From the NCBI RefSeq assembly GCF_027942295.1, contig NZ_CP101416.1:1821501-1885500 (forward strand): a DNA stretch of 64,000 bases, given 5' to 3'. This document shows, one piece after another, positions 3,629 to 9,844 of the stretch. Position numbers and translations under genes: made by a program. The DNA comes from Pseudanabaena sp. Chao 1811 (GTDB taxonomy: Bacteria; Cyanobacteriota; Cyanobacteriia; Pseudanabaenales; Pseudanabaenaceae). The notes beneath the pieces are model-generated. The model was not told the DNA's origin, did no database searches, and saw only the letters and a program-made list of their open reading frames with translations. Position 1 is the first letter of the stretch; the number at the start of each line of letters is the position of its first letter.

Positions 3629-4801
3629 TTAGCGATGTCTGACTAAAAAAGATGGTAAATCAACCTTGGATGAGGGAAAAGGCGATCGCGCAGGTACAGG
3701 TCTTGCTTCGGCTATTGGTTCTCGTTCTAGTACATATTCCTGTTCAGCTTGTCGATCATGAATTTGAGGTGATGATGTCGGTGTTAAATGCTTAACGGGT
3801 TTTTCTGCTAGTAAGCGCTCTAACGCACCACTTAGTTGCAGCGCATGATGTTGATGACGCACTGACTGTTCTTTCCAATGTTGGATAGCGGCTTCATATT
3901 CGGAAGCCTTAGATGCTTGTTGGAGAACTTGATTTTGTAATTCTTCGATTTGCTGTTCTAGGTCTTGGACTCGGTTGAGATCACTAACATATTCATTTTC
4001 TAGACCACGCAAAGACTGATGTAATTGCGCTTGATTAGAGAGATGTTTAATTAATTCTTCTTCAAATTGATCGCGTTGAGCTTGTACTTCTGATAATTTT
4101 GTTTGGGCAATTTCTAGAGTTTTAGTTGATTCTTTGAGGAGTAATTGTGTCGCTTCTAACTCTTCGGTTAAGGTTTGTTGGGAAATATCAAGGGCAGTAT
4201 TTTGACATTGCAATTGATTAATCAACTCATTTTTATCGGTAATTTCTTGTAAATATTGCTGAGTAATTTTTTGCGTTTCAATTTCCAAGGCGATCGCTAA
4301 ACGATGCTGAAATTCTTCCTCAATTTGTAAAACATGAACGGCTAAGCGATCGCTTAATATTTTGTCATCAACAGGTGGATTGGCGCTTAGTTCAGTAACT
4401 TGTTTTTGTAGTTGTTCTAATTGCTTGGTGAGTTCGGCGACTTGGCGATCTCGATCATGAGTGACGCTAGTAATTTCTTGTTCTAGCTGATCGACATATT
4501 CACATTCAAATTGATGTTGCGATCGCAGTTCCTCTAACTCATTGTGCAGGCGATCGCGATCAGCAATTACTTCATGGATGTTTGGTTGCTGAATATCCTG
4601 AGTCCCATGACCATCCGATAGCCAATCATCGGAGAAGGCATCAAGATTATCAAGATTACCGAGCATATTCGTAATTTCAGCGATCGCTTGTGCGTCTAGC
4701 AGTCCGCCATCTAAGAGCGCATCTAGATCATCGTCATCATTAACGGTTTCTGCTTTAACCAAAACTTCTCGTAGAGCTGCTTCGCGTTTCAATTCACTCA
4801 C
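3629..4801 (-). CDS. Coiled-coil protein of unknown function
   Basis: Not assigned to a named family. The chosen GTG start (4799-4801) is preceded by GAGG six bases upstream and gives 390 residues. An upstream TTG at 4862-4864 is in frame but adds an unlikely leader. The N-terminus is acidic (DDDDLDALLDGGLLDAQ and NLDNLDAFSDDWLSD). About residues 90-330 are heptad-rich Gln/Glu/Leu coiled coil. The tail is basic-proline and ends in SFLVRHR. No signal peptide or transmembrane segment is evident. The pattern resembles cyanobacterial coiled-coil-rich filament or scaffold proteins, but that is only an analogy. Confidence 0.75.
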   Translation of the reverse strand: MSELKREAALREVLVKAETVNDDDDLDALLDGGLLDAQAIAEITNMLGNLDNLDAFSDDWLSDGHGTQDIQQPNIHEVIADRDRLHNELEELRSQHQFECEYVDQLEQEITSVTHDRDRQVAELTKQLEQLQKQVTELSANPPVDDKILSDRLAVHVLQIEEEFQHRLAIALEIETQKITQQYLQEITDKNELINQLQCQNTALDISQQTLTEELEATQLLLKESTKTLEIAQTKLSEVQAQRDQFEEELIKHLSNQAQLHQSLRGLENEYVSDLNRVQDLEQQIEELQNQVLQQASKASEYEAAIQHWKEQSVRHQHHALQLSGALERLLAEKPVKHLTPTSSPQIHDRQAEQEYVLEREPIAEARPVPARSPFPSSKVDLPSFLVRHR

Positions 4802-4891
4802 GGACAACCTCACCGAACAATACCGAGGTATTTTTACAAGACAAACATTAACAGACTTTGTCAAGTTTGCAAGTTTTTTTCTTAGTAATTC

Positions 4892-5512
4892 TCATGGCTT
4901 GCGGGGAAGGTTGCGAATAAAGGTTTGGATTTCCTTGTAAGGGTTTTGAGCAACTATTTCCTTATCAGTCTTTTTGAGGACAGTTTTGTCAGGTAATTTT
5001 TTGTTCTCAAATTGCTTACTCACAATGACTGCGGGGATCGTGTTGTCAATTACATCCACATCACATCGCACAGTAAAGGCAGGAATTTTTTCATTGGTTC
5101 TTTCGTTGATATAGTCTCCCTCCCGAAAATTAAAACAGTTGATCTGTACAACTGTCTTTACTTCAGCAACTGAGTTGGCATAGAGTTGACCCAAGGCTGC
5201 ACGATCTTCTGGGAGAAATTCACTCTTGTTGTTGGCTCGTTTATAGACAAAAATCACTTTTCCTTTAATATAGGGTTGATCTACTTCTTGCACTGGTGGG
5301 GCAAGAGCGGCAAATTTGTCACTTTGGGATTCCAACTCGTCTAATGCTTTTTTCTTTGCTTGCTCTGCTTGAGCTTTTTTATCTGCAAGCTCTTTATCCA
5401 GTTTTGCCTTAGCGGTTTCTTCGGGCGATTGACAGCCTGAAACGATAGTTAGGCAAAATAGTGAAATTAAGAGAAGCCATTGGTATGGGGTATTTTTGAG
5501 AGGCATTTTCAT
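4892..5512 (-). CDS. Putative lipoprotein of unknown function
   Basis: A 206-residue secreted protein. The N-terminus has a hydrophobic segment ending in the lipobox IVSGC, so lipid attachment at about Cys27 is expected. A lysine/alanine-rich helix (about 35-65) follows. The remaining globular part contains two internal cysteines, in QINCFNF and TVRCDVD. No family is recognised. ATG 5510-5512 is the only sensible start. It follows the start region of the coiled-coil gene on the same strand, with about 90 bp between them. Confidence 0.75.
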   Translation of the reverse strand: MKMPLKNTPYQWLLLISLFCLTIVSGCQSPEETAKAKLDKELADKKAQAEQAKKKALDELESQSDKFAALAPPVQEVDQPYIKGKVIFVYKRANNKSEFLPEDRAALGQLYANSVAEVKTVVQINCFNFREGDYINERTNEKIPAFTVRCDVDVIDNTIPAVIVSKQFENKKLPDKTVLKKTDKEIVAQNPYKEIQTFIRNLPRKP

Positions 5513-5675
5513 GGGTTTCTCTAAAATTGGCTTGTTTGGATAAATTGTTTAGGTAATCATGATGCGATCACTTTAAAGCGTGGAAAACTAATTGCCCAAA
5601 TATATCAGAATAATTAAATAGATTAATATAATATTGCTCGACAAATGATTAGTATTCAGTCAAACAAGAATCACC

Positions 5676-5819
5676 ATGTTTACAAAACTACGCATTCAGA
5701 ATTTTAAGTCATGGGCAGATACAGGAGAATTTCGGATGGCTCCTTTGACTAGCTTTTTTGGTACAAATAGTTCTGGAAAAACGGCGATCTTGCAATTTCT
5801 AAAATCTGTTAATGATTAA
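5676..5819 (+). pseudogene. Truncated AAA-family ATPase, N-terminal fragment
   Basis: ATG 5676 to TAA 5819 encodes 47 residues: an N-terminal strand MFTKLRIQNFKSW, then a perfect Walker A GTNSSGKT (29-36) and FLKSVND before the stop. This is the opening of a RecF/SMC-like AAA ATPase of the AAA_15/DUF3696 type, which normally runs to several hundred residues. The Walker B, signature and C-terminal domains are absent. The next gene at 5912 is a different ATPase with its own complete N-terminus, so this is not its frameshifted start. It is best read as a remnant of a second ATPase gene. Confidence 0.7.
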
Positions 5820-5911
5820 ACTAACTGTTGTATGATTCCATTTAACCGTAACAACTATAATAGATTAGCAACGATGTAGCTAATAATATTTAGGTCATTC
5901 TAGATCAATAT

Positions 5912-7027
5912 ATGTTAAATAGAATATACATAGATAATTTTCGCTCTCTTGTAAACTTTGAGATTTCATTTAATTCTATTAACCTATTCCTAGGAGGAAA
6001 TGGATCAGGTAAATCCACAGTTTTTGATGCGATAAATAGAGTTAAAGATTTAATTTCTGGTGTATTTAAGGTAGAGAATCTATTTACCATCTTTGATTGC
6101 TGTCGTTGGCAGACACTTAAGGAACATAACTTTGAGATCGAAATAGATGGTAATGGAGGTAAATACAAATATGACCTTGCAATACTATATAACGAACAAC
6201 AGAAGCCATTTATTGCTCATGAAAGATTATGGTTTAATAATCAACCATTATTAAAATTTGAATTAGGTGGTGTATATATATATGATGATGATTATTTGGA
6301 AATATCAAAAATCTCCTACTTTGATTCTTCTCAATCATTTCTATCTCTTTTACCACCAACTAATACTAATAAGAAGCTAACTTGGTTTAGAAATTGTATA
6401 TTGCGTCTCTTAGTTATACAGATTACTCCTTCTCTAATGACTGGAGTTAGCGAACAAGAACTTTCTTACATATCTCCAAGAATGGAAAACTATGTATCTT
6501 GGTATCGTCATCTTTCACAAGATCAAGGTAAGGTTCTTAAGATTACAAATGTATTGCGAGAGGTTTTAGATAAATTTACATATTTTAAATTTGATAGGTT
6601 TAGTGAAACCAACTATGGATTAAAGCTAATATTTGAAAATGAGATTGACAATAAAAAACCAATTGAATACTACTTTAATGAATTATCAGATGGACAGAAA
6701 GTTATTATTGCTTTATACACTTTAATCTATAGTACTCAAGATGAAGACTATACATTATTTATTGATGAGCCAGAAAACTTTTTAGCATTACCAGAAGTAC
6801 AACCTTGGCTAGATCAGTTGTACGATCTTTGTAGTGAGAAAAAACTGCAAGCTATTCTCATTTCTCATCATCCTAAACTTATTAATTTTCTAGCTGCAGA
6901 TTCAGGTTACTGGTTTGAGAGAAAGGGCAATTCTCCAGTGCGAGTTAAGAGAATTAAAGACGAGGATGATACTGGATTACCTATATCTGACCTAGTAGAG
7001 CGTGGTTGGCTTTATGACCCAGAATAG
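5912..7027 (+). CDS. AAA-family ATPase (RecF/OLD-like), partner of the TOPRIM-like protein
   Basis: A 371-residue ABC-type ATPase of the AAA_15/AAA_21 group. It opens with the typical IYIDNFRSL strand and Walker A GGNGSGKST (28-36). It shows a signature-like LSDGQKVIIAL near 265-275, Walker B LFIDEPEN (Asp285, Glu286) and the H-loop ILISHHPKL. Such ATPases drive antiphage systems together with nuclease partners, including OLD/Gabija-type and PARIS-type. The next gene overlaps its end by 14 bp, a sign of tight co-expression. The coding region is AT-rich, contains no HIP1 octamer and lies in a HIP1-free stretch of about 3.8 kb, suggesting transfer. Defence function is inference. Confidence 0.85.
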   Translation: MLNRIYIDNFRSLVNFEISFNSINLFLGGNGSGKSTVFDAINRVKDLISGVFKVENLFTIFDCCRWQTLKEHNFEIEIDGNGGKYKYDLAILYNEQQKPFIAHERLWFNNQPLLKFELGGVYIYDDDYLEISKISYFDSSQSFLSLLPPTNTNKKLTWFRNCILRLLVIQITPSLMTGVSEQELSYISPRMENYVSWYRHLSQDQGKVLKITNVLREVLDKFTYFKFDRFSETNYGLKLIFENEIDNKKPIEYYFNELSDGQKVIIALYTLIYSTQDEDYTLFIDEPENFLALPEVQPWLDQLYDLCSEKKLQAILISHHPKLINFLAADSGYWFERKGNSPVRVKRIKDEDDTGLPISDLVERGWLYDPE

Positions 7028-7541
7028 ACAAACTATCGTAATTTTGTGTGAAGATCGTCAACAATATGTCTTTGCTCGTTACTTTCTTCAGAAAAAAGGA
7101 TTAACTGGAAATTTTATTGATAAAAGTTGTCCTAGTGGTAGGCAAGCTGGAGAGCAATATGTTCGCGAACGTTATGCAGCAGAAGTTAAGGCTCATCGGA
7201 GTAAAAACTATCTTAATATTTGCTTGATAGTAGTTATAGATGCTGATAGAAACACTGTAGCCGAACGCATAAAACAGTTAGACTCAGTTCTTGAGGAAAA
7301 ACGTCATCGTAAAGAAAAAATTGCAATATTTGTTCCGAAGAGAAATATTGAGACTTGGATACATTATCTACAGTCAGGAGAACCTATTGATGAAATTGTT
7401 GCGTATAGCAAACTTGCAAACCAAGGAGAATGTAAACCATTTGTTGAAAAGCTTGCCGATCAATGTGTACTAGGTTTACCTACCAATGCACCGCCATCAA
7501 TGCATGATGCTTGCATTGAAATAAAGAGAATCATTGAGTAG
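7014..7541 (+). CDS. Small TOPRIM-like putative nuclease, partner of the AAA ATPase
   Basis: ATG 7014 lies inside the last codons of the ATPase gene, in overlapping frames, and gives 175 residues. A GTG at 7002 is the other possible start. The sequence shows the elements expected of a minimal TOPRIM fold. There is an acidic residue after the first strand (VILCED, Glu13). There is a DxD at VVIDADRN (Asp76, Asp78). The late motif KRNIETW (Glu113) resembles the FExW-type motif of RloB- and DUF4276-like proteins. It lacks the extra domains of the larger DUF4435 partner in PARIS. Metal-dependent nuclease activity controlled by the ATPase is inferred, and no exact family is claimed. Confidence 0.7.
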   Translation: MTQNRQTIVILCEDRQQYVFARYFLQKKGLTGNFIDKSCPSGRQAGEQYVRERYAAEVKAHRSKNYLNICLIVVIDADRNTVAERIKQLDSVLEEKRHRKEKIAIFVPKRNIETWIHYLQSGEPIDEIVAYSKLANQGECKPFVEKLADQCVLGLPTNAPPSMHDACIEIKRIIE

Positions 7542-8306
7542 TTATTTGGTTCTTTTGGGACTTAATATATTTATATATCTTTCCAAAGCACCTAAAACCT
7601 TTTCAGCAATTAGTAAAATAAAATCTTCTTTATTATTCTCAGATTGCACCTTTTCTAAAGCATCATAATAAGCCATCCGACTATCATAATCACCACCAAT
7701 AATTGCTAATGGAAAACCATATTGCAACAGAATTAAATTCATAATTAAGCGAGCAGTCCTACCATTACCATCAATAAAAGGATGAATATTTACTAACCTT
7801 TCGTGCATTTCGGCTGCTAAAACTACTGGATGTAAATGATCTTTCGATTGAATATAAAATTGGAAATAGCCATCCATCAAATCCTGCAATAAATAGGGTT
7901 GTGGAGGTAAATGCTTACTTCCTGCGATAGCTACAGGTAACTTACGATAAACTCCTGCATTTTCGCGATCGATACCGTACAGGACAATTCCATGAATTTG
8001 TTTAAGGACATATTCTGATAAATCTACCTTTTGAGAAACAAGATCATCAATAAATAAAATAGCCTCTTTATGATTAATTGCTTCTAAATGCTCGCGCATA
8101 CTTTTGCCACTAATCGTCATTCCCTCATTAATGACTAATTGAGTTTCACGCAAAGTTAAAGTATTACCTTCGATGCGATTACTTTCGTACAAAAACTCAA
8201 CTTCTAACGCTTCTTTAATCGTGGCATTGTCTAAAGATTGGCGCAAAATATCTAGCTCTGCTTTGAGTTGATCAATATCAGCAAGGATTGATTCTATTGT
8301 TCTCAT
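7542..8306 (-). CDS. Fic-family AMP-transferase with N-terminal inhibitory helix
   Basis: A 254-residue Fic protein that transfers AMP (or another nucleotide part) to a target hydroxyl. The catalytic loop is HPFIDGNGRTAR with the catalytic His at residue 175, a complete active motif. The inhibitory motif (S/T)xxxE(G/N) is present as SNRIEGN (Ser42-Glu46) ahead of the Fic fold, marking a class II, self-inhibited enzyme. No separate FicA-type antitoxin gene is expected or seen. Its stop codon abuts the stop of the convergent TOPRIM-like gene with no spacer. ATG 8304-8306. The cellular target is unknown. Confidence 0.9.
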   Translation of the reverse strand: MRTIESILADIDQLKAELDILRQSLDNATIKEALEVEFLYESNRIEGNTLTLRETQLVINEGMTISGKSMREHLEAINHKEAILFIDDLVSQKVDLSEYVLKQIHGIVLYGIDRENAGVYRKLPVAIAGSKHLPPQPYLLQDLMDGYFQFYIQSKDHLHPVVLAAEMHERLVNIHPFIDGNGRTARLIMNLILLQYGFPLAIIGGDYDSRMAYYDALEKVQSENNKEDFILLIAEKVLGALERYINILSPKRTK

Positions 8307-8320
8307 AAATTGAATGTAAA

Positions 8321-9844
8321 TTAAATTGCGCCCAAAGCCTTTAACAAAGCTGCAAACTTAATCGTGGTTTCACTTTGTTCATTTTCCACTTGCGAATTTG
8401 CCACAATCCCTGCACCCGCAAAAATTCTTGCCCGATCGCCTTGAATATATCCCGCTCTAATCCCCACACCAAAAGTTCCTTCACCATTACCATTTAGCCA
8501 ACCAATGGGGGCAGCATACCAACCGCGATCGCAGGCTTCCCATTGCTGCATGAAACAGACGGCGCGATCCCTTGGCTCACCACCGACTGCGGCAGTTGGA
8601 TGTAACTGCTGCAAAATATCTAAGGCAATCAACCAATCAGGATCATCAATTTGAGCAGTAATCGGTGTATGTAAATGCTGCACATTCGACAGTTTCAACA
8701 GGCTAGTATTTACATGTGGATCGACTGAAGCCCCCATACTTTGCAAGCGATCGCAGATCGAGCGAATTACAATTTGATGTTCGCGCATATCCTTTTCACT
8801 ATTAAGTAATAGCTCACCCAGCATTTGATCTTCCTGTACCGACTTACCCCGCTCGATCGACCCCGCAAGGGCATCACTGCGTAACCAAAGGCGATCGCTT
8901 TGGGCTTTAAATTGCAACACCACTTCAGGAGTCGCACCCAAAAAGGTTTTACCTACGCCATAGTCAAGTAAAAAGGAAATACATTCAGGATATTCGCACC
9001 GTAATACATGCAGTACCTGAAATGGATCAAAATCGCGATCGGCTAACACATCTAAAGCTCTAGCCAAGACCACCTTTTCAAAATGCCCTTGATGAATCAA
9101 AGTTAAGGCACGCTCGACGATCTCTGTCCAGATTTGTTGTCCCTGTACCTCAATGATTTTATTAACTTCATGGACTGTGGGGGATTCATAATGGGAGCTT
9201 TCGGACAAATGCGATCGCAAATTTAGAATACGATCCATGACCTCATCAGCATGATCCCAAGGTTGAATATAGTCATTGAGAGTCAAGGTACAAGCTTGTT
9301 GCGTATACCTGACCATCCAACGGGGAATGAAAAATAGTAAAGTCGGAAATTCGATCGCTGGCTGATAGTCCTGTTGATATTGAGATTGATAGTCACTAGG
9401 TACAGCTAAATCAACCCACTCGTTAGGGTTGCTACCATTTCGATAAAAAGAAAAAGCACCGAAAATATGTATAGAAAGTTCAGAGCGCTGTAGATCAAGT
9501 TCTGGATGCTTCGCGATGATTGCATCCTCTAGATGTGTCCTAATAAACTTTTTGGCACAATCAAAGCGATCGCTCAAATCATGATTTGGCACTGAGACTT
9601 CGGCAACCGAACCCGCCGCCGCTAATACCAAATCGGCATTCGGTTGTTCCCAATAAAACTTTGGTTGTTGGGGATCAGACTTACTTGCCAACAACAATAG
9701 AGGATTCATGCACTCCCAACTCTGGGAGTAACTAAATAAGATCGGTGATCCCGTGACCTGCGCTTTAGCGATCGCTTTAACAATCCAATCGTGCAGAGAT
9801 TTAGAATCGATGCTGCTATAGGTGACACTCTGACGAACTTGCAT
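8321..9844 (-). CDS. menF: Isochorismate synthase
   Basis: A 507-residue enzyme converting chorismate to isochorismate, in cyanobacteria the entry step to phylloquinone (vitamin K1, the photosystem I quinone). The C-terminal chorismate-binding domain (about 240-505) shows FLGATPEVVL, LHPTAAVGGEPRD and FGVGIRAGYI with the conserved His/Glu positions. The less conserved N-terminal half fits the plant and cyanobacterial MenF/ICS type. It lies 14 bp downstream of the Fic start on the same strand, so menF is transcribed towards fic and read-through is possible. No other men gene is in the window. Confidence 0.92.
   Translation of the reverse strand: MQVRQSVTYSSIDSKSLHDWIVKAIAKAQVTGSPILFSYSQSWECMNPLLLLASKSDPQQPKFYWEQPNADLVLAAAGSVAEVSVPNHDLSDRFDCAKKFIRTHLEDAIIAKHPELDLQRSELSIHIFGAFSFYRNGSNPNEWVDLAVPSDYQSQYQQDYQPAIEFPTLLFFIPRWMVRYTQQACTLTLNDYIQPWDHADEVMDRILNLRSHLSESSHYESPTVHEVNKIIEVQGQQIWTEIVERALTLIHQGHFEKVVLARALDVLADRDFDPFQVLHVLRCEYPECISFLLDYGVGKTFLGATPEVVLQFKAQSDRLWLRSDALAGSIERGKSVQEDQMLGELLLNSEKDMREHQIVIRSICDRLQSMGASVDPHVNTSLLKLSNVQHLHTPITAQIDDPDWLIALDILQQLHPTAAVGGEPRDRAVCFMQQWEACDRGWYAAPIGWLNGNGEGTFGVGIRAGYIQGDRARIFAGAGIVANSQVENEQSETTIKFAALLKALGAI

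Follow-up and report, generated by a model that had tools for sequence, protein, structure and literature searches.

Two overlapping genes of Pseudanabaena sp. Chao 1811, here called A and B, form a co-inherited and patchily distributed unit of an ABC/SMC-type ATPase and a small protein that is probably of the TOPRIM type. We cautiously favour the reading that they constitute a two-gene immune module in which A would restrain and trigger the putative nuclease B. Gene A (5912..7027, + strand) encodes a 371-aa ABC/SMC-type ATPase, the putative sensor and regulator, as assigned by Pfam, AlphaFold, Foldseek and VIA, and gene B (7014..7541, + strand) a 175-aa small TOPRIM protein, the putative nuclease effector, as assigned by AlphaFold, VIA and profile-profile comparison. 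All positions are those of the window, i.e. the whole 64,000-nt stretch analyzed, around which the genome measures 4.73 Mb. The ATG of B at 7014 lies upstream of the end of A at 7027, giving an overlap of 14 nt. The coordinates, overlap, protein lengths and motifs are all as described in the original prediction, which had been made from the letters of the DNA alone. The AT-richness and lack of HIP1 sites that it had reported were also borne out. The GC content is 32.8% in the pair and 41.6% in the window as a whole, which places the pair within the lowest 2.6% of same-size stretches, and the stretch 4680-8525 is free of HIP1, of which the window contains 122 sites; at this density the chance of such a stretch is about 7e-4. 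Judged by B, the nearest named relatives are in two Pseudanabaena strains (96 and 94%).

The protein A had been taken for a RecF-like ATPase with intact Walker A, Walker B and H-loop, and the Pfam results, fold matches and conserved key positions agree with this. Both AAA_21 (63.3 bits) and AAA_15 (52.4 bits) matched above cut-off. The key positions of Walker A (GGNGSGKS, residues 28-35, 5993..6016), the ABC signature (LSDGQ, residues 258-262, 6683..6697), Walker B (DEPEN, residues 285-289, 6764..6778) and the H-loop (SHH, residues 318-320, 6863..6871), all on the + strand, are conserved in at least 90% of the 74 aligned rows, Gly29, Ser32 and Glu288 falling outside this set. With the AlphaFold model of A (pLDDT 89.5), Foldseek returned Rad50 as the best match followed by OLD and PtuA, with E-values of 4e-13 to 2e-9 among the 50 matches listed (6.1e-12 for OLD 6p74), and VIA gave Z-scores of 18-20 to the heads of cohesin, SMC, Rad50 and the retron protein PtuA. 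A is an ABC/SMC-type enzyme. It is acidic, with a pI of 5.0 (family median 5.2), and ends in an RGW motif of which each residue is kept in 72 or 73 of the 74 rows; our guess is that this motif docks B.

In the family scans, B stayed below every Pfam and NCBIfam cut-off, and the annotation of such genes will therefore probably remain 'hypothetical'. The TOPRIM domain is an alternating alpha/beta fold with a Glu ending strand 1 and a DxD motif ending strand 3. This layout is present in the AlphaFold model of B (pLDDT 90.9), where strand E7-12 is followed by Glu13 (7050..7052, + strand) and strand E69-74 by Asp76-Ala-Asp78 (7239..7247, + strand). All 66 aligned rows share Glu13 and both Asp, and Arg62 and Glu169 are equally invariant. 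The acidic residue Glu113 lies in the motif PKRNIETWI (residues 108-116, 7335..7361, + strand), which is also the same in the 66 rows; as KRNIETWI was one of the search patterns for relatives, this is partly an effect of ascertainment and full invariance is not claimed. Among the profile-found relatives listed, IETW is kept in 13 of 13, while the Lys of the motif varies in four (L089, L095, L096, and L097), and IETW is present in four RloB/DUF4276-like relatives as well. Rows with odd ends (L047, L054, L061, L078, and L080) were dropped from the B alignment, L036 was lost to dereplication and is also absent from that of A, and the near copy L003 as well as L037 were left out. The latter has Lys at position 13 of B, and the ATPase in the same locus is also broken. 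The relatives in L095, L096, and L097 form a distinct B subfamily of 190-202 aa with an A of its own, in which E13, D76/D78 and IETW are kept and GEQYVR is absent.

The three best VIA matches of the B model were TOPRIM domains of OLD proteins, 6p74 (Z 8.1; 3.8 Å over 132 residues), 6nk8 (Z 7.5) and 6njv (Z 6.9). GajA stood lower (Z 5.4 and 5.0), and unrelated folds appeared from Z 6.5 down (an isomerase at 6.5); a Z of 8.1 is close to the background for middling models, making the structural match alone a modest one. Foldseek found no match at E ≤1e-3 among 1086, the top rows being common alpha/beta folds, and a sequence search with B against solved structures yielded no more than three matches, all of chance quality (E 0.28-2.1). 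Among the 50 VIA matches listed, neither AriB nor RNase M5 appeared as a solved structure, which is uninformative, because VIA only re-aligned Foldseek's own ranking. Profile-profile comparison resulted in probabilities of 89.5% for DUF3226, 85.3% for DUF4276, 85.5% for an unnamed sister family, 67.6% for DUF4435 and 3.4% for RloB, with controls (the ATPase profile, response regulators and a reversed profile) below 1%. Of the families that had been named for this comparison, DUF4276, DUF4435 and RloB, B nevertheless qualifies as a member of none (see below). In the alignments, Glu13 and the two Asp face acidic residues in DUF3226, DUF4435 and the sister family; with DUF4276, Glu13 and the first Asp alone match. 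A TOPRIM fold is therefore supported by three partly independent lines, i.e. the matches of the AlphaFold model, the profile-profile comparison and the invariant acidic residues, and B is probably a TOPRIM-type protein and a putative nuclease. The small TOPRIM partner of the original prediction, with acidic residues at Glu13, Asp76/Asp78 and Glu113 (in NIETW), has held up: the residues are located as claimed and conserved, OLD TOPRIM domains are the best solved matches, and the probabilities to DUF3226/DUF4276 are 85-90%. B is basic (pI 8.7), the family median being 8.4 and the range 5.1-9.8.

To see how regularly the two genes occur together, 109 relatives of B were collected and 80 loci kept. 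In 78 of them, B is preceded on its own strand by a homologue of A that is either whole or broken, the exceptions being L051, which is cut by a contig end, and L076, which has a broken B; B is thus not routinely found without the ATPase. When the search was started from the ATPase, with the five best candidates scored per genome, a B match adjoined 16 of 16 hits at 1.4e-128 or better as judged from their coordinates, in two of which B carries a stop or frameshift. Counting weak hits, B had matches in 24 of the 386 genomes searched within the phylum, and in 15 of 142 genera. A and B overlap in 63 of 67 loci, most often by 14 nt (27 loci) or 8 nt (22 loci). The distances of A and B are correlated (r 0.896, 64 loci), and none of 1000 permutations was as high (maximum 0.248). 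Compared with three relatives, dN/dS was 0.08-0.13 for A and 0.07-0.14 for B (overall 0.065-0.143), and the pair is under purifying selection. Both genes are full-length in 69 of the 80 loci, only A in four, only B in four and neither in three; one of the B-only loci and one of the three with neither gene are cut by contig ends. The loci with full-length B and a broken A that are uncut by a contig end are L037, L038, and L047. Among these, L038 is the sole clean case of B without A, L037 having Lys13 and L047 an odd N-terminus. The pair recurs in ten phylum-level groups, and the phyla are mixed on the ATPase tree (17 changes vs. a minimum of 9), counts that are rough because the tree came from a quick search and has long branches. 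Between L003 and the window dS is 0.92 for A and 0.22 for B, and this inequality suggests recombination within the module.

The Pseudanabaena site preserves traces of an earlier occupant. Upstream of A, a stump of an HEC-03-type ATPase gene comprises 47 codons and a stop (5676..5819, + strand), and it is 95% identical over 42 aa to open ATPase genes of 470 and 471 aa at the same site in two congeners (L294 and L295). PADLOC, whose library model is the form in which we know HEC-03, recognizes the L294 module as HEC-03, at 1.2e-123 for the ATPase (model HEC-03B) and 2.2e-32 for its partner. Downstream, a Fic protein is encoded on the opposite strand (7542..8306, - strand; Pfam Fic 3.4e-20, PADLOC SoFic 1.1e-32). 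It contains HPFIDGNGRTAR plus an N-terminal SNRIEG stretch, which we take to fit the class II Fic inhibitory motif. The next gene (8321-9844) is presumably MenF, and 14 regions adjoining it in congeners were compared. A, B and Fic are found together in L293, and A and B without Fic in L299. In L294 and L295, Fic is accompanied by the open ATPase gene and a partner of 162 or 160 aa, respectively, in place of A and B. None of these genes is present in L300 and L301, where a coiled-coil gene adjoins MenF, and L292, L296-L298, and L302-L305 contain neither A nor B nor Fic over the length read, a short one in L297. The stump precedes A also in L002 and G193, is split over two frames in L003/L293, and is decayed in L004 and L299, where it ends at apparently the same junction. 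The stump in several strains, together with the open HEC-03 at this site in congeners, indicates that A and B replaced HEC-03, a replacement that probably happened once. The second broken ATPase gene noticed earlier is therefore real; it is the remnant of this candidate defence module, not a second copy of A. The Fic gene that had been counted as a flank of the pair likewise exists, but it is separable cargo outside the module, since it occurs without A and B in L294 and L295 and is missing beside them in L299.

In other lineages the pair has unrelated neighbours. A second insertion place is found in six Nostocales loci (L007, L009, L010, L014, L022, and L027), between genes for a P-type ATPase and a MerR-CbiC regulator (domains scanned in L007, the rest by tblastn), which we take to be coaT- and coaR-like, respectively. 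In five of the six, the regulator gene starts 7 nt past B and may therefore rely on the promoter of the pair for its expression. At 24 other regulator loci, coaT is divergent within 64-188 nt in nine, farther apart in seven and not seen in the available flank in eight. In the Chlorobiaceae, the copies (L057, L059, and L071) are inside an exporter operon with MacB-type permeases, and in L059 the pair lies between the gene for the transporter's ABC subunit and its permease genes. The outer-membrane factor and adaptor of this operon were assigned by look only.

The neighbourhood was surveyed systematically by reducing the 80 loci to the 73 with a B ORF of at least 170 aa and, after dereplication, to 59. 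In place of a gene finder, a script that greedily takes the longest ORF delimited the neighbouring ORFs, and 198 of 262 near ORFs (111 first and 87 second neighbours) and 98 of 105 far ORFs were scanned. The scans count families and not their individual members. Among the families listed, which are the best 25 of 32, 31 and 52, the near ORFs gave a few BREX, PsyrTA, HEC-01 and SoFic matches, and the far ORFs included Cas3, HEC-02 and PD-T4-6. PADLOC matches were sparse in all neighbour sets, those to mad3 resembling cross-matches of ABC ATPases, and the Pfam families of the first neighbours were mostly ordinary (best 25 of 88). No clear defence enrichment near the pair was thus seen among the families listed for 198 near vs. 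98 far ORFs. Such a survey had been proposed as a means to recognize defence islands, and we rejected the neighbourhood as proof of defence, as the near hits are scattered and not more evident than the far ones. Searches of phage, plasmid and viral collections yielded no relatives; in one of them, 35 stretches fitted a pattern, but not one could be confirmed.

How might the pair work? The SMC/OLD-like ATPase A would probably dimerise on ATP, keep B inactive in a complex and sense an infection cue. The trigger would lead to an ATP-driven rearrangement of A by which B would be released or activated, and the site formed by Glu13, Asp76, Asp78 and Glu113 of B would bind Mg2+ and cut nucleic acid, and the cleavage would stop the phage or the infected cell. 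In PARIS, a phage protein is sensed by the ATPase, which in turn switches on a tRNA-cleaving TOPRIM RNase (PMC12409363 and PMC12839542), and by analogy A would restrain and trigger B. We lean weakly towards a PARIS-like RNA (tRNA-like) substrate of B and away from DNA, the substrate in OLD. A role in defence appears on balance the better assumption because of the exchange with HEC-03, the patchiness and, by analogy, the kinship in design with PARIS, OLD and HEC-01. Counting against it are the Nostocales and Chlorobiaceae copies that sit among ordinary genes, the merely scattered defence hits near the pair, the mostly ordinary families listed for the first neighbours and the lack of relatives in the phage, plasmid and viral collections. 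In PARIS, the ATPase and TOPRIM protein are both needed, and deletion of either is harmless and abolishes defence (PMC9122126). The loci with one broken gene fit such harmlessness, L038 alone being clean for B without A.

Restriction of the OLD or Gabija kind, in which a stable A-B complex would cut or nick incoming DNA with ATP as the sensor and with no release of an RNase, is in our opinion unlikely, even though OLD TOPRIM domains are the best solved matches of B, GajA is also among its matches, and A itself matches OLD. B is a separate, basic protein with no fused domain, just as AriB is separate in PARIS (PMC9122126), and no helicase-looking cluster is present among the seven neighbour clusters listed. 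Rather improbable is also an accessory cassette that serves the host in some way other than against phage, for example by repairing nucleic acids or regulating the genes next to it. The mostly ordinary first neighbours, the closely spaced coaR-like gene in the Nostocales and the exporter operon in the Chlorobiaceae would suit it, but the neighbours differ between lineages, presence, absence and the HEC-03 swap occur within one genus, and broken copies exist.

A classical toxin-antitoxin pair, with A neutralising the toxin B, would explain the two overlapping genes, the description of Pfam AAA_21 as 'putative AbiEii toxin, Type IV TA', and the four loci that keep A with a broken B, as expected of an antitoxin outliving its toxin. 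On the other hand, full-length B stands beside a broken A in L037, L038, and L047, of which L038 alone is clean and draft assemblies can err, and deletions in PARIS, the closest tested analogue, excluded a toxin-antitoxin system (PMC9122126); we regard this explanation as very improbable. The reading of A and B as an immune module with a restrained nuclease remains the one we favour.

With the pair, ATPase/TOPRIM immunity would gain a small branch that is widespread but unannotated, and whose effector is of a size suited to simple biochemistry. We tentatively propose, well short of conviction, that no member of this separate and still unnamed ABC-ATPase/TOPRIM branch has been described before, and that the branch spans about ten phyla, apparently often sits outside defence islands, has an effector with a distinct motif, and replaces other ATPase-nuclease modules. 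If so, the PKRNIETWI motif of the 175-residue effector would imply a substrate and trigger of its own, island-based surveys would have missed the branch, and its life cycle would consist partly of head-to-head replacement, at sites used in common, of ATPase-nuclease modules such as HEC-03 here. In Pseudanabaena, the replacement of one such module by another has left a clear fossil, at which cassette exchange outside defence islands is testable.

Among known systems, PARIS (AriA plus AriB/DUF4435) resembles A and B in having separate genes for an ABC ATPase and a TOPRIM protein. It has been recognized by a match to AAA_15 of at least 32 or to AAA_21 of at least 27 bits plus an adjacent DUF4435 protein at no less than 27 bits (PMC9122126). 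The bit scores of A exceed both ATPase thresholds; B, however, does not match DUF4435 even with the E-value limit set to 1, and none of the 66 family members does so at 0.1. At 175 aa, B is also shorter than the 285-336 aa of 11 DUF4435 proteins with a separate adjacent ATPase; several other DUF4435 proteins, of 488-674 aa, may be fusions. In OLD, Gabija GajA and HEC-04/IbfA, the ABC ATPase and TOPRIM domains are fused in one protein (PMC10568477 and PMC12111858), whereas A and B are two genes. HEC systems are described in PMC12111858 as embedded in Hma loci and as shown to confer phage resistance, a description that does not cover HEC-03 itself.

HEC-01 (AAA_21 ATPase plus DUF4276 in PADLOC) is likewise an ATPase of ~370 aa followed by a small TOPRIM-like protein. 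The HEC-01A model matches A at 6.4e-21 and 72.8 bits, compared with 454.9 bits for a member, and such models cross-match other ABC ATPases. HEC-01B matches B of the window at 1.3e-3 and the best of the B family at 1.7e-7, while true HEC-01 members score 1e-75 (B) and 4.6e-137 (A). DUF4276 matches at E ≤0.1 were obtained for 7 of 66 B members (best 7.7e-4), where a match of 1.1e-4 corresponds to 23.0 bits vs. a cut-off of 30.2. B is shorter than the HEC-01 partner and has its own PKRNIETWI motif. HEC-01 directly follows A and B in L006. Elsewhere in the genome of the window lie an HEC-01 pair (L120; ATPase plus DUF4276) and a DUF3226 protein that has an ATPase beside it (G000:C1:3329101-3329745 and 169975-170670).

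The two-gene systems of an ATPase and an RloB-type partner, RloAB (as we call the ATPase plus RloB-like system) and AbiL, are similar in plan, and the AbiLi model matches A at 1.5e-19. In this case 2 of 66 B members match RloB at E ≤0.1 (best 9.6e-4), a match of 7.5e-6 being equivalent to 26.7 vs. a cut-off of 31.5, and the ATPases adjoining RloB are larger than A (424-450 aa). The best PADLOC match of A is the A model of the candidate PDC-M25 (3.3e-25, 87 bits), but none of the PDC-M25 partner models matches B. The next family found by the A profile (7.7e-70 and weaker) is an unnamed sister pair of a ~370-aa ATPase and a ~162-aa LPEDD...LLIDFD protein, the latter being the sister family at 85.5% to B mentioned above. 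It lacks PKRNIETWI, unlike B, and belongs to no Pfam or PADLOC family as tested in L168; apparently it is another small TOPRIM-like partner. It follows the sister ATPase in 10 of 13 loci (L156, L158, L159, L161-L163, and L165-L168).

In the cyanobacterial loci returned, an ATPase found with the A profile stands next to DUF4276 in 27 of 30 cases, next to RloB in 16 of 20, next to DUF3226 in 21 of 25 and next to DUF4435 in 11 of 18, indicating that the architecture itself is common. The A and B family was not recognized in literature searches, the reach of which ended short of the Aravind-group ABC-ATPase classification and bioRxiv preprints. The suggestion that the compact module is new would hold for the family, which is unnamed, but not for the design, as pairs of an ATPase and a small TOPRIM-like protein (DUF4276/HEC-01, RloB, and DUF3226) are frequent in cyanobacteria. 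Two-gene ABC-ATPase/TOPRIM modules are already known from PARIS, HEC-01 and RloAB/AbiL, and the pair described here is an unnamed relative of these systems.
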